Origin: Prolixibacteraceae bacterium
Lineage (GTDB): Bacteria; Bacteroidota; Bacteroidia; Bacteroidales; Prolixibacteraceae
Assembly: GCA_019163175.1 (NCBI GenBank)
Contig: JAFLKN010000007.1
Coordinates: forward strand, 62,001 to 126,000
Length of the DNA stretch: 64,000 nucleotides
Direction: 5' to 3'
Part shown: piece after piece, positions 4,545-9,713 of the stretch
Layout of the letters: the number at the start of each line of letters is the position of its first letter
Position numbering within the stretch: position 1 is the stretch's first letter
Notes under the pieces: model-generated
What the model was told of the DNA's origin: nothing
The model's database searches: none
What the model saw: only the letters and a program-made list of their open reading frames with translations
Made by a program: the position numbers and the translations under genes

Positions 4545-5876
4545 TCAATCTTCTATCGCCTTGATTTCAACTTTAATTTGTTTAATCCGCCGGTTGTCCA
4601 CTGCTTCAATGGTGAAAACGTAATTCTTGCAATTAATAGTATCATTTTTGAGCGGAATCTCACCTTTCAATTCCAAAATAAGTCCTGCAAGGGTGTCGGC
4701 TTCGCCTTTTACATCATCAAACACTGTATCTTCTGTTCCAATAACTTTATAAAAATCATTTAACATGGTTTTACCATCGAACAGGTATTTATTATCGGCT
4801 ATTCTGGTATAGAATTTTTCTTCTTCATCAAACTCGTCTGTAATTTCTCCTACGATTTCCTCCAATACATCTTCCAATGTTACAATACCCGAGGTTCCGC
4901 CATATTCGTCAACAACAATGGCCATATGTACTTTGTTTTTCTGAAATTCTTCCAGCAGATCATCAATCTTCTTTGTTTCGGGGACATAAAATGGCGGACG
5001 AATAATATTTTGCCAACGAAAGGTTGCCCCTTTGTGAGCATGTGGAAGCAAATCTTTAATGTACAGAATGCCTTTAATGTTGTCAAAAGAATCGGAATAG
5101 ACAGGTATTCTTGAAAAGCCGGTTTCTGTAATCAAATTCATGATTTTTGGAAAGCTTTCATTTATATCTGCAGAAATCACGTCAACGCGCGAACGCATAA
5201 CTTCAGCAACACTCTTGTTCCCAAATTTCACGATCCCTTTTAATATTTCTTTATCCTCCTTGAGTTCAGTTTGAGAAGTTAACTCTAAAGCCTGAGACAA
5301 TTCATCAACAGAAATATGCTGATTGTAAGCACGAATCCGGTTATTTACAAACGAGGTAGAATAAATTAAAATGGAATTTATCGGTCTGAAAATTTTTATC
5401 AGGTAATAAAGAGGAATGGCAATAAAACGAGCAAACTTAAAAGCATGGTGCGTTGTGTAAACTTTAGGTATTATCTCGCCAAAAAGCAAAATAATAAAAG
5501 AAATAACTACCACCTGAAAAACAAAACCCCAAATAGGTTCGTTTGAAAAATCGACCAGATTATTAAGTGTGAAGCTCGACAAAATAACAATACCCACATT
5601 AACAAAATTGTTGGCTACTAAAATAGTGGCCAACAATTGCTCCGGAGATTCCAGATTTTTATTGATATAAAAACTCTTTTTAGTTGATCTTCCGGAAATT
5701 TTATGCTTTTCAGAAGGACTTAACGAGAAGTACGCAACTTCAGAACCGGAAATTAAAGCAGAGCAAACTATTAATACAAATGTAACTATCAGGCTAATTG
5801 CAACACCTGTTGTAAATGGGTGAAATTGAATATTCCAGGAAATTGCGCTAAGCGTGGGTACAGGATCAGTTTCCAA
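4545..5876 (-). CDS. gldE: Gliding motility-associated protein GldE (CNNM/CBS/CorC transporter family)
   Basis: A 443-residue inner-membrane protein of the HlyC/CorC family. An N-terminal CNNM (DUF21) domain with about four hydrophobic segments covers residues 20-190. A CBS pair follows at about 205-335, including the typical VDEYGGTSGIVTLEDVLEEIVGE-like stretch. The C-terminal CorC/HlyC domain covers about 350-440. Homologues affect divalent-cation transport. In gliding bacteria GldE overproduction compensates for some gldD defects, so the pair is thought to work together. It lies 19 bp after ssb in the mutY-ssb-gldE-gldD transcript. The assignment to GldE rather than a generic CorC protein rests on the adjacent gldD and ssb. 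Confidence 0.9.
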   Translation of the reverse strand: METDPVPTLSAISWNIQFHPFTTGVAISLIVTFVLIVCSALISGSEVAYFSLSPSEKHKISGRSTKKSFYINKNLESPEQLLATILVANNFVNVGIVILSSFTLNNLVDFSNEPIWGFVFQVVVISFIILLFGEIIPKVYTTHHAFKFARFIAIPLYYLIKIFRPINSILIYSTSFVNNRIRAYNQHISVDELSQALELTSQTELKEDKEILKGIVKFGNKSVAEVMRSRVDVISADINESFPKIMNLITETGFSRIPVYSDSFDNIKGILYIKDLLPHAHKGATFRWQNIIRPPFYVPETKKIDDLLEEFQKNKVHMAIVVDEYGGTSGIVTLEDVLEEIVGEITDEFDEEEKFYTRIADNKYLFDGKTMLNDFYKVIGTEDTVFDDVKGEADTLAGLILELKGEIPLKNDTINCKNYVFTIEAVDNRRIKQIKVEIKAIED

Positions 5877-5895
5877 TTAAGTGTTGTTTAAGTTA

Positions 5896-6330
5896 TTAAA
5901 ATGGCAAATCGTCTTCTTCTGGCTGACTAAAGTCTGGTTCATTTACACTCTGAGGGAGTTCTGCATTCATCATTGGCTGGCCCGGAATCTCAGCCTGCCC
6001 ATCACGTTTACCCAACAATTGCATGGTGTCAGCATAAATTTCAGTGGTATAACGTTTGTTCCCATCTTTATCATCCCATGCACGGGTTCTAATCCGACCT
6101 TCAATGTAAAGCTGGCTACCTTTTTTTACATACTTTTCTGCTACTTCAGCCAGACCTCGCCAAGCCACAATATTGTGCCACTCTGTGGTGCTCACTTTTT
6201 CGCCAGTTTTTGCTGTATACGTTTCAGTTGTTGCCAATGAAAAATTTGCAACTGCAACACCCTTATCCAGATGTCTTGTTTCAGGATCACGTCCAACGTT
6301 TCCTACTAAAATAACTTTGTTTACTGACAT
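5896..6330 (-). CDS. ssb: Single-stranded DNA-binding protein
   Basis: Binds single-stranded DNA as a tetramer during replication, recombination and repair. The 144-residue protein starts with [17 protein letters not shown], the usual first OB-fold strand of bacterial SSB. It also has the [12 protein letters not shown] and [17 protein letters not shown] strands. The C-terminus is the acidic tip EEDDLPF, which docks partner proteins. It lies between mutY and gldE on the same strand, 115 bp after mutY and 19 bp before gldE. The 115-bp gap upstream may hold its own promoter, but I could not pick one out with confidence. Confidence 0.96.
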
Positions 6331-6445
6331 ACTTGTATGGTTTTAATGTTTGATAGAACTAAATTTACAATAATTTCTATCGTCATTTTTCATTTTACTG
6401 CAAAAATTTATGAATTAGCCAAAATTCATGTTCAACACATAATTT

Positions 6446-7516
6446 TTAACGCATGAATCTATCATTTTCACTCAGTTCAATTATGCATTCCTCTATTAAT
6501 CTAGGCACAGCAAAGTTAAGAATATCTTCCTTATTTACTTTAATCAACCCATCAGTCAATTTGATTTCTTCAGATAAATCAAACCAGATAAACCGATAAT
6601 GTATTCGTTGGTGACTCAAAATATGTATCTTCCAATTGCTAATGCGTTTAACCGATGTATTCCTGAGAGATGTCAGCTCACCCAATTCCGGATGATTTAG
6701 AACAAACCCGACCTCTGTTTCTTCTGAAGTTTCAATCACCGGAAACTCAAAAAGCCCAAGCCATATATCGTTTTTAATTCGTTGACGCAACCATGTGTTA
6801 TTGGCAAATTCAAAAACCAGATAATTAAAATACCGGTCACGTTGTTTTGTCTTATTTTGCTTTACCGGCAATTCACCCACTTTATTGTTAGCGAAAGCAA
6901 AGCAACTTTCATTTAGAGGGCACAGTGCACAATTTGGACTTTTCGGGACACATTGCAATGCACCAAACTCCATTAAAGCCTGATTATGCATTCCGGGATC
7001 GGCACCCTTTATCAGTTCTTTCGCCAACAAACCAAATGTCTTCTTTCCAGTATTCGAGTCAATTGGCTCTGAAATACCAAAAAATCGACTCAGTACCCGG
7101 TAAACATTTCCATCAACAGCCGGATATTCCAAATTAAACGAAATTGACGCAATAGCCGCAGCGGTGTAATCGCCAATTCCTTTTAATGATCGAATCGAAT
7201 TGTAATCTTCAGGAAATTTACCTTGATGATGTTCCTGAATAAATTTAGCGGTAAAAAGGAGGTTGCGGGCACGTGAATAATACCCCAAACCTTGCCAAAG
7301 TTTCAAAACCTGATCTTCGGAGGCATTTGCCAAGTCTAAAACAGTCGGAAACTCTTCCGTAAATCTCAGATAATAAGCCATGCCCTGATCAATTCTGGTT
7401 TGCTGAAGTATTATCTCGGAAAGCCATACGAAATATGGATTGTGGGAGTTTCGCCAAGGTAAATCGCGCTTATATTTAGAGTACCAACCATGTATTTGCA
7501 AGTTGAAAAATTCCAT
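6446..7516 (-). CDS. mutY: A/G-specific adenine DNA glycosylase
   Basis: Removes adenine mispaired with 8-oxoguanine. The 356-residue protein has the catalytic Glu in SEIILQQTR near residue 34, the helix-hairpin-helix LKGIGDYTAAAI, the catalytic Asp in VDGNVYRVLSR, and a complete [4Fe-4S] cluster pattern C-X6-C-X2-C-X5-C (CVPKSPNCALCPLNESC). The C-terminal third is the NUDIX-like domain that recognises 8-oxoG. It is the first gene of a minus-strand run with ssb, gldE, gldD and the PPTase, and it is transcribed divergently from the HU gene. All key residues are present. Confidence 0.96.
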   Translation of the reverse strand: MEFFNLQIHGWYSKYKRDLPWRNSHNPYFVWLSEIILQQTRIDQGMAYYLRFTEEFPTVLDLANASEDQVLKLWQGLGYYSRARNLLFTAKFIQEHHQGKFPEDYNSIRSLKGIGDYTAAAIASISFNLEYPAVDGNVYRVLSRFFGISEPIDSNTGKKTFGLLAKELIKGADPGMHNQALMEFGALQCVPKSPNCALCPLNESCFAFANNKVGELPVKQNKTKQRDRYFNYLVFEFANNTWLRQRIKNDIWLGLFEFPVIETSEETEVGFVLNHPELGELTSLRNTSVKRISNWKIHILSHQRIHYRFIWFDLSEEIKLTDGLIKVNKEDILNFAVPRLIEECIIELSENDRFMR

Positions 7517-7571: not shown

Positions 7572-7603
7572 TGTTCCTAATTTTTAAATAATTTTTATTT
7601 TTG
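7572..7603 (+). promoter_or_regulatory. Candidate Bacteroidota promoter for HU
   Basis: The -7 box TATTTTTG (form TAnnTTTG) lies at 7596-7603. A weak upstream element, TGTTC at 7572-7576, sits 19 bases before it. The start codon of the HU gene is 52 bases downstream. Confidence 0.5.
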
Positions 7604-7655: not shown

Positions 7656-7940
7656 ATGACAAAAGCAGATATTGTTAACGAAGTAAGTAAGAACACTGGT
7701 ATTGAGAAAGTGACAGTACAAAAAGCAGTAGAAGCTTTCATGGAAACAGTGAAAGATTCACTAACCGAAGGAAGAAATGTTTATCTTCGTGGATTCGGTA
7801 GTTTTATCGTAAAAAAGAGGGCAGAAAAAACTGCGCGTAATATTTCAAGAAATACTACAATCATTATTCCTGAGCATTTCATTCCTTCTTTCAAGCCAGC
7901 TAAAACTTTTGTAGCACAAGTTAAAGACCAAGTAAAATAA
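7656..7940 (+). CDS. HU/IHF-family DNA-binding protein
   Basis: A 94-residue histone-like nucleoid protein that bends DNA as a dimer. It opens with the HU signature MTKADIVNEVSKNTG. The beta-arm region carries GRNVYLRGFGSFIVKKR, which contains the family signature GFGSF, followed by the basic arm ARNISRNTTIIIPE and the terminal strand FKPAKTF. The arm Pro is in IIIPEHF rather than the RNP-type triplet of classic HU, so it may be of the IHF-like group common in the phylum. It is transcribed divergently from mutY, and the 30-codon ORF that starts 6 bases after its stop is probably on the same message. Confidence 0.95.
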   Translation: MTKADIVNEVSKNTGIEKVTVQKAVEAFMETVKDSLTEGRNVYLRGFGSFIVKKRAEKTARNISRNTTIIIPEHFIPSFKPAKTFVAQVKDQVK

Positions 7941-7946
7941 TTTATT

Positions 7947-8039
7947 ATGCCAAGCGGAAAAAAAAGAAAAAGACATAAGATGGCTACGCACAAGCGTAAG
8001 AAGAGACTAAGAAAAAACAGACATAAAAAGAAAAAATAG
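7947..8039 (+). CDS. 30-residue basic protein resembling the AURKAIP1/COX24 (bS22/mS38) ribosomal protein family
   Basis: A complete short ORF with ATG at 7947 and TAG at 8037-8039. It encodes 30 residues, of which 20 are Lys, Arg or His. The product begins MPSGKKRKRHKM and continues ATHKRKKRLRKNRHKKKK. The core pattern KRKRHKM..HK.KK.LRK.R resembles the DUF1713 domain of mitochondrial mS38 (AURKAIP1, Cox24) and the small bacterial bS22-type proteins that sit near the decoding centre of the small ribosomal subunit. It follows the HU gene by 6 bases and is closed by a strong terminator, so it is expressed with HU; RNase G is next. Family membership is inferred by eye from a very short low-complexity sequence. 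The ORF itself and its position are certain. Confidence 0.85.
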   Translation: MPSGKKRKRHKMATHKRKKRLRKNRHKKKK

Positions 8040-8080
8040 TCTTTCTTTATTAAGCATTAGCTTTTAAAGTACTTATTACG

Positions 8081-8125
8081 ATTAAACCTAAAGCACATTT
8101 TGCGCTTTAGGTTTAATCTGTTTTT
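8081..8125 (+). terminator. Strong intrinsic terminator after the HU/small basic protein unit
   Basis: A perfect 14-bp stem (8081-8094 with 8104-8117) around a 9-base loop is followed by CTGTTTTT. It separates the HU message from rng, although read-through into rng is possible. Confidence 0.88.
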
Positions 8126-8162: not shown

Positions 8163-9713
8163 GTGAGTAGCGATTTAATTGTAGACGTCTCTCCTTCGGA
8201 AGTGGTAATTGCTTTATTGGAAGATAAACGGTTAGTCGAACTTAACAGGGAAATGACTGGGGCTAAATTTGCAGTTGGAGATATTTATCTCGGACGAGTG
8301 AAAAAGATAATGCCCAGTCTTAACGCTGCTTTCATTGACGTAGGTTACGAAAAAGATGCTTTCTTGCATTACCTCGACATGGGGCCACAGTTTTCAACAC
8401 TCAACAAATTTTTGAAAATTGCCACGTCGAAAAACAACAGAATCACCTCCATTTCAAAGGTTCAGTCAGAACCTGATATTGACAAGGAGGGAAAAATCTC
8501 AGACATTCTTAAAGTAGGGCAAAACATTTTGGTACAGGTGGCTAAAGAGCCAATCTCCACCAAAGGTCCCCGCTTAACTTCAGAATTGTCGATCGCCGGC
8601 CGGAATATGGTGTTGATGCCATTCAGCGAAAAAGTTAGTATTTCTCAGAAGATTGAATCTGCTGAAGAAAAAAACAGACTTAAAAAGCTGATCCAGAGTA
8701 TCAGGCCCAAAAAGTATGGCGTTATCGTGCGAACCGCTGCTGAAGAAAAACGTGTTGCAGAACTTGATCAGGAATTGAAACGATTGGTTAGCAAGTTCGA
8801 AACAACATTTCAGAAATTAAGAAGAGTAAATGCACCTGCCCTAATCGTTGGCGAATTAGGCAGAACAACCGCTTTACTCAGGGATATTTATCATCCCGAC
8901 TTCAACAGTATCATTGTAAACGATGCTGTTGTTTGTGAAGAAATTACTGAATATTTGGGATCTATCGCCCCTGAAAAAAAGAAAATCGTGAAGCTTTACA
9001 ATGGCAATCAAACGATTTTTGAATACTATGGGATTGATAAACAATTAAAAGCATCTTTTGGTAAAACTGTATCCTTCAAGAATGGAGCATACCTGATAAT
9101 CGAACACACTGAAGCATTTCATGTTATTGATGTAAACAGTGGAAACCGTTCGAAAGCAGGAATTGACCAGGAGACTAACGCTCTTGAGGTTAATTTGGCT
9201 GCTGCCGAAGAAATTGCCCGCCAACTGAGGTTGAGAGATATGGGTGGCATTATTGTAGTCGATTTTATCGACATGCATCAAGCCGAAAACCGCCATAAAG
9301 TATTTGAGCGGATGAAAGAAGCAATGGCTGTTGACCGCACAAAGCACAACATTTTGCCATTGAGCAAATTCTGCTTATTGCAGATTACACGTCAGCGTGT
9401 TCGTCCTGAAGAACATGTTGAAACAGCTGAAGTTTGCCCGGTATGTAAAGGTACAGGCAAAGTAACACCAACCATTTTAGTGGTTGATGAATTGGAAAGT
9501 AAAGTCAATTACATCTTTAAAGAGCTAAATAAGGGTAAAGTAATTATTAAAGCTCACCCCTATCTGGCAGCCTACTTAAACAAAGGCCTTTATTCATTAA
9601 GGTGGAAGTGGATTTTCAAATTCCTTAAAAACATTAAAATTCAGGAAATGAGTTCCTATTCCTTAATAGAATATCATTTCTTTGACGAAAATCAAGAAGA
9701 GATTGTATTTTAA
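8163..9713 (+). CDS. rng: Ribonuclease G (RNase E/G family)
   Basis: An endoribonuclease that matures the 5' end of 16S rRNA and decays mRNA. The 516 residues match RNase G rather than the longer RNase E. The N-terminal S1 domain covers about 35-130. The catalytic DNase I-like domain carries the metal-binding Asp motif VIDVNSG near residue 325 and VVDFIDMH near 367. The zinc-link motif CPVCKGTG lies near residue 428. The start is GTG at 8163; the nearby bases offer no in-frame ATG before the conserved MSSDLIVDVSPSE N-terminus. It lies 37 bp beyond the HU terminator. Placement beside a ribosomal-type small protein fits its 16S role, though that link is only inference. Confidence 0.95.
   Translation: MSSDLIVDVSPSEVVIALLEDKRLVELNREMTGAKFAVGDIYLGRVKKIMPSLNAAFIDVGYEKDAFLHYLDMGPQFSTLNKFLKIATSKNNRITSISKVQSEPDIDKEGKISDILKVGQNILVQVAKEPISTKGPRLTSELSIAGRNMVLMPFSEKVSISQKIESAEEKNRLKKLIQSIRPKKYGVIVRTAAEEKRVAELDQELKRLVSKFETTFQKLRRVNAPALIVGELGRTTALLRDIYHPDFNSIIVNDAVVCEEITEYLGSIAPEKKKIVKLYNGNQTIFEYYGIDKQLKASFGKTVSFKNGAYLIIEHTEAFHVIDVNSGNRSKAGIDQETNALEVNLAAAEEIARQLRLRDMGGIIVVDFIDMHQAENRHKVFERMKEAMAVDRTKHNILPLSKFCLLQITRQRVRPEEHVETAEVCPVCKGTGKVTPTILVVDELESKVNYIFKELNKGKVIIKAHPYLAAYLNKGLYSLRWKWIFKFLKNIKIQEMSSYSLIEYHFFDENQEEIVF

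Follow-up and report, generated by a model that had tools for sequence, protein, structure and literature searches.

Can an open reading frame of 30 codons, lodged between an HU gene and a ribonuclease gene in the 64,000-nt stretch of Prolixibacteraceae DNA analyzed here (the window), be a gene at all, and if so, what does it encode and how closely is it tied to its neighbors? The original prediction had taken it for a ribosomal protein of the bS22/mS38 type, too short for normal gene callers, and had suggested that its message couples nucleoid and ribosome supply. We find that it is a real bS22 gene, an identity that we hold almost certain from the homology, conservation, selection, gene order and hairpin described below. 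Its product is most likely a basic helix for a pocket of 16S rRNA, and the gene would stand second, after HU, on a message shared by the two. The features concerned are these:

7596..7603, + strand: promoter-like box TATTTTTG, which fits TAnnTTTG and lies 60 bases 5′ of the HU start
7656..7940, + strand: DNA-binding protein of the HU family, 94 aa (93.5 bits with Pfam PF00216, whose cut-off is 22.4)
7947..8039, + strand: bS22, a 30-aa small-subunit ribosomal protein (PDB chain matches, distribution, selection)
8080..8125, + strand: hairpin with a U-rich run, a probable intrinsic terminator (folding)
8163..9713, + strand: rng, an RNase E/G family ribonuclease with a GTG start (TIGR00757, 426.8 bits against 325.95; PF10150, 322.4 bits)

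The HU stop codon ends at 7940 and the ATG starts at 7947, leaving a gap of six bases as described originally, and translation gives MPSGKKRKRHKMATHKRKKRLRKNRHKKKK followed by the stop codon TAG. The peptide is strongly basic, with 21 of 30 residues being lysine, arginine or histidine (12 K, 6 R and 3 H) rather than the 20 counted earlier. Searching it with phmmer against PDB sequences (E ≤ 10) returned three distinct matches, all of them ribosomal or so named: 9i5v_10, identical at 28 of 30 positions; 7jil_5, identical at 27 of 30 (E 3.8e-10, residues 1-30); and 8fmw_V, the bS22 of Borrelia (E 1.1e-5, residues 1-28). A profile built from 24 diverse Bacteroidota copies recovered the same three chains with E-values of 3e-15 to 1e-11. 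The Flavobacterium johnsoniae bS22 (7jil, and the identical sequence in four later entries) has the same length as the window peptide and differs from it by M12V, L21A and K23A only, while the equally long 9i5v_10/9i5x chain, for which our literature search found no paper naming the entries, differs by S3N and R22K. The Borrelia burgdorferi protein (8fmw) is identical at 20 of 28 aligned residues by hand count, and unlike the window peptide it is two residues shorter and has different gene neighbors; according to the available part of PMC10618245, it is read from a GUG start. The peptide thus has a full-length, significant match to chains modelled as bS22, and it has the form of the family as well, being 30 aa long, very basic and the single match in its own genome. 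It is this near-identity to chains of solved ribosomes, together with a near-universal presence in the phylum, that identifies it as bS22.

Curated family models contributed little to the assignment. No NCBIfam family matched the window copy, and one of the 24 diverse copies matched a single, unrelated NCBIfam model (E 2). Pfam PF08213 (COX24_C) scored the window copy at 12.1 bits, below its gathering cut-off of 23, and matched 9 of the 24 copies at E ≤ 10 (best E 0.062); a genome-wide COX24_C search of G000 gave no match, leaving the peptide outside COX24_C and every other NCBIfam or Pfam model at their cut-offs. Sub-cut-off COX24_C matches in two other genomes (G205, 13.9 bits; G147, 12 bits; cut-off 23) were rejected as bS22. 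The 24-copy profile did not reach the actinobacterial bS22 chains or mitochondrial mS38 (AURKAIP1/COX24) at E ≤ 10. The proposed resemblance to mS38 rests on the published structures, as far as the available part of PMC10618245 goes; its sequence side is weak and sub-threshold. What did not survive is the statement that such a gene is too short for normal gene callers, since the 9i5v_10 chain carries the annotation name ‘AURKAIP1/COX24 domain-containing protein’, so that bS22-type genes do get annotated. The family is already known and has been seen in the ribosomes of relatives, and for the window the result is an ordinary annotation; it also confirms a very short ORF as a ribosomal protein gene by homology, distribution and selection.

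Across the phylum, 196 of 198 sampled genomes contain bS22, each with a single match, as do 19 of 21 genomes from the closest relatives, so that the reading frame is more than a product of chance. The four exceptions (G147 and G195 in the phylum sample, G199 and G205 among the relatives) also gave no match to the 24-row profile at E ≤ 10. G199 (76% complete) and G205 (97% complete, in 650 contigs) are relatives within the genus of the window, and their lack of a match perhaps reflects assembly gaps. For measures of constraint, we compared 111 copies (the window, 91 genus representatives and 19 loci of relatives), all of which begin with ATG, GTG or TTG and encode 29-35 residues. Summed over these 111 related and hence not independent copies, differences from the window copy amounted to 550 over 7856 non-synonymous site comparisons and 1493 over 1714 synonymous ones. 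All 11 same-genus copies (10 genomes) showed 0 non-synonymous and 1-8 synonymous differences, and 15 of 29 aligned columns were invariant among the 24 diverse copies, a pattern which indicates that the protein is under strong purifying selection. One relative (G207) had two near-identical HU-bS22 copies (G207:C45 and G207:C71; L127 and L141), each followed closely by the end of its contig, which is probably an assembly or mixing artefact.

These results bear directly on two other readings of the ORF. A short frame rich in lysine in an A-rich genome might be a chance or vestigial basic ORF without a product, but near-identical ribosome chains, presence in 196 of 198 genomes and purifying selection refute this, and we give it practically no credence. 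That the product is instead the large-subunit protein bL38 seems to us highly improbable. This reading takes its support from a double label: the PDB sequence shared by 7jil and other entries (u123360) is one 30-residue sequence with two molecule names, S22 and L38, and ‘50S ribosomal protein L38’ is among its entry names. In the available part of PMC10618245, however, F. johnsoniae bS22 is the protein of the 16S pocket and bL38 a different 50S protein with beta-strands, and the double name appears to be a conflict of labels. A phage copy was also considered, and tblastn of the peptide against a phage collection gave no match.

With bS22 as the preferred identity, its place in the ribosome can be taken from papers on relatives. 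According to the available part of PMC10618245, the bS22 proteins of F. johnsoniae, Borrelia and M. smegmatis occupy a pocket formed by the 16S helices h2, h27, h44 and h45, with contact to 23S H68; the B. burgdorferi protein is in this same pocket, and mS38 and eL41 are at the equivalent site. In the available part of PMC10085706, the bS22 proteins of Mycobacterium smegmatis and Cutibacterium acnes are basic helices in the same rRNA pocket; that of C. acnes, which is 37% identical to the F. johnsoniae protein, lies in the same region, contacts H67 and is called an extra inter-subunit bridge. Entry 7jil itself is identified as the F. johnsoniae ribosome in PMC9976891, a paper whose available text does not mention bS22. 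By extension, we infer the same site for the window organism: most likely, the peptide would sit as a bent basic helix in the 16S rRNA pocket of h2, h27, h44 and h45, and upon subunit joining it would touch 23S rRNA helix H68 (H67 in another paper), serving as a small electrostatic pin and an inter-subunit bridge.

Gene order around bS22 was counted at 91 loci, one per genus, drawn from 102 genera with a match; 10 genera whose place was unlisted or whose gene lay at a contig end were left out, and the genus of the window was counted apart. At 75 of the 91 loci, an HU gene precedes bS22 on the same strand at a distance of no more than 2.5 kb. The gap between the two genes is 13-121 bases in 20 of these 75 loci and 570-1188 bases in the other 55; in the wide-gap representatives that we inspected, a single gene, often zinc-ribbon or membrane-anchored by eye, fills most of it. 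HU was not found in the stretch at the remaining 16 loci, at one of which (L079) the upstream gene resembles rho by reading. Close relatives gave 19 loci, all 19 with HU upstream at a gap of 3-43 bases and 17 with rng downstream, the other 2 stopping at contig ends. The linkage of HU and bS22 is real and old, and the HU neighborhood can help the annotation of bS22. Adjacency to rng is of a different extent: rng follows bS22 at every one of the 30 loci from the window's class and at 0 of the 61 from other classes, so that in this sample the adjacency is confined to the class. The rng product itself scored 320.9 with the narrower ribonuclease G model NF008689, under the curated cut-off of 594.

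Several minor observations concern these neighborhoods. In many genera (L032, L053, L057, L060, L062, L068, L082 and L114), a single gene of approximately 230-340 codons intervenes between HU and bS22; judged by eye, it begins with a zinc ribbon or carries a membrane anchor, and it is absent from the order of the window. Upstream of HU in the window, on the minus strand at 4545-7516, are genes resembling by reading a CBS-domain membrane protein, SSB and MutY; at L044, HU is likewise preceded by MutY- and SSB-like genes.

TAnnTTTG is the Bacteroidota −7 consensus, and a box of this form is present 47-76 bases 5′ of the HU start at all 19 readable loci, the window included (L134 had too little upstream DNA to be counted), although the chance of such a box is 0.14 per shuffled sequence and the 19 loci are related. 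Given the box before HU at these loci and the 6-base gap, HU and bS22 are probably carried on a shared message, which would start at the TATTTTTG box and mostly end at the 8080-8125 hairpin. This hairpin has 17 predicted pairs and a free energy of −21.7 kcal/mol (z −7.1, with 0 of 200 shuffles as good), and with its U-rich tail it agrees with the strong terminator predicted just past the ORF; a consensus terminator scan reported none at 8080-8125, in our opinion because the loop is longer than the scanner allows. All 11 same-genus copies can be seen to have its AAACCTAAAG...CTTTAGGTTT repeat, which our terminator script missed in 3 of them. Among 49 loci from the order and the class, 27 have such a structure by the simple rule of that script (a hairpin with a T-rich tail, ≤ −8 kcal/mol), and a terminator after bS22 is common there, if not shown for every locus.

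Do HU, bS22 and rng then work together as a unit of regulation, coupling nucleoid protein, ribosomal protein and 16S maturation? The order of the three genes recurs at the 30 class loci, some with one gene between HU and bS22 and one (L037) without HU in the stretch, and the relatives agree with it apart from contig ends. In addition, we found no consistent promoter box for rng behind the hairpin across loci, which fits partial read-through and makes read-through into rng possible. Against such a unit, bS22 and rng are divided by a strong hairpin, which leaves the coupling unproven, rng is downstream at none of the 61 loci outside the class (2.5 kb stretch), and regulation does not follow from a conserved order by itself. 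Nor would the HU-bS22 message be the sole source of HU, as the genome has three PF00216 genes and both others outscore the copy at 7656-7940. We therefore think this coupling unlikely and read rng, on the sequence signals, as mostly separate from the message of HU and bS22. The HU linkage of the original prediction stands, and its coupling through rng is unproven.

Beyond the HU linkage, interest in this gene rests on a clade without it, which is the most interesting side result. For the survey of bS22 loss, we took G147, G195 and the other genomes of their family (f35), together with loci L152, L153 and L164-L174. Of 80 genomes in the order of G147, 67 have bS22; the 13 without it are 12 genomes of f35 and G234 (89% complete), so that the gene is missing from 12 of 13 f35 genomes versus 1 of 67 elsewhere in the order. 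This family is most likely Salinibacteraceae. In other families of the order, bS22 lies between a divergent alpha/beta hydrolase gene and YtxH-like and YaaA-like genes (named by reading). Of five loci checked, the four from L158 to L161 have this arrangement, and L162 shows YaaA only. Searching named genomes with the f35 hydrolase gave 45 loci, of which the closest 11 (65-91% identity) belong to Salinibacter, Salinivenus, a Salinibacteraceae MAG and Bacteroidetes MAGs. At 10 of these 11 and at both f35 loci, the hydrolase, YtxH and YaaA genes are kept and bS22 is gone, with at most 12 K/R/H in any 25-codon stretch of the interval; the interval of L174, the most distant of the 11, does contain bS22 (20 of 25 K/R/H). 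The simplest reading is a single loss inside Salinibacteraceae. A further 34 hydrolase loci (L175-L208, from Chitinophagaceae, other Bacteroidota and uncultured organisms) showed no bS22 in the stretch and were not counted for or against a loss, because their hydrolases are 38-47% identical and do not establish the same neighborhood. A search for 16S rRNA in G147 and G195 with RF00177 found none, and among the papers listed by a literature search none bears, by its title, on bS22 loss in Salinibacter, from which we make no claim that the loss is unpublished.

As one family of the phylum does without it, bS22 is not indispensable everywhere. Salinibacteraceae bacteria keep a salty cytoplasm, and it is our guess that this led to the loss. 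In a wider form, which we offer as speculation that is more probably wrong than right, the HU-bS22 linkage would tie together the supplies of a bridge pin and a nucleoid protein, and a high-salt cytoplasm would have made the basic rRNA clamp useless or replaceable in Salinibacteraceae. If this is true, the Salinibacter ribosome would be a natural bS22 knockout; a clade that lacks bS22 with its neighbors kept offers a natural comparison for the role of the protein in the cell. One of the surveyed loci (L152) has an SSB-like gene close to the hydrolase.
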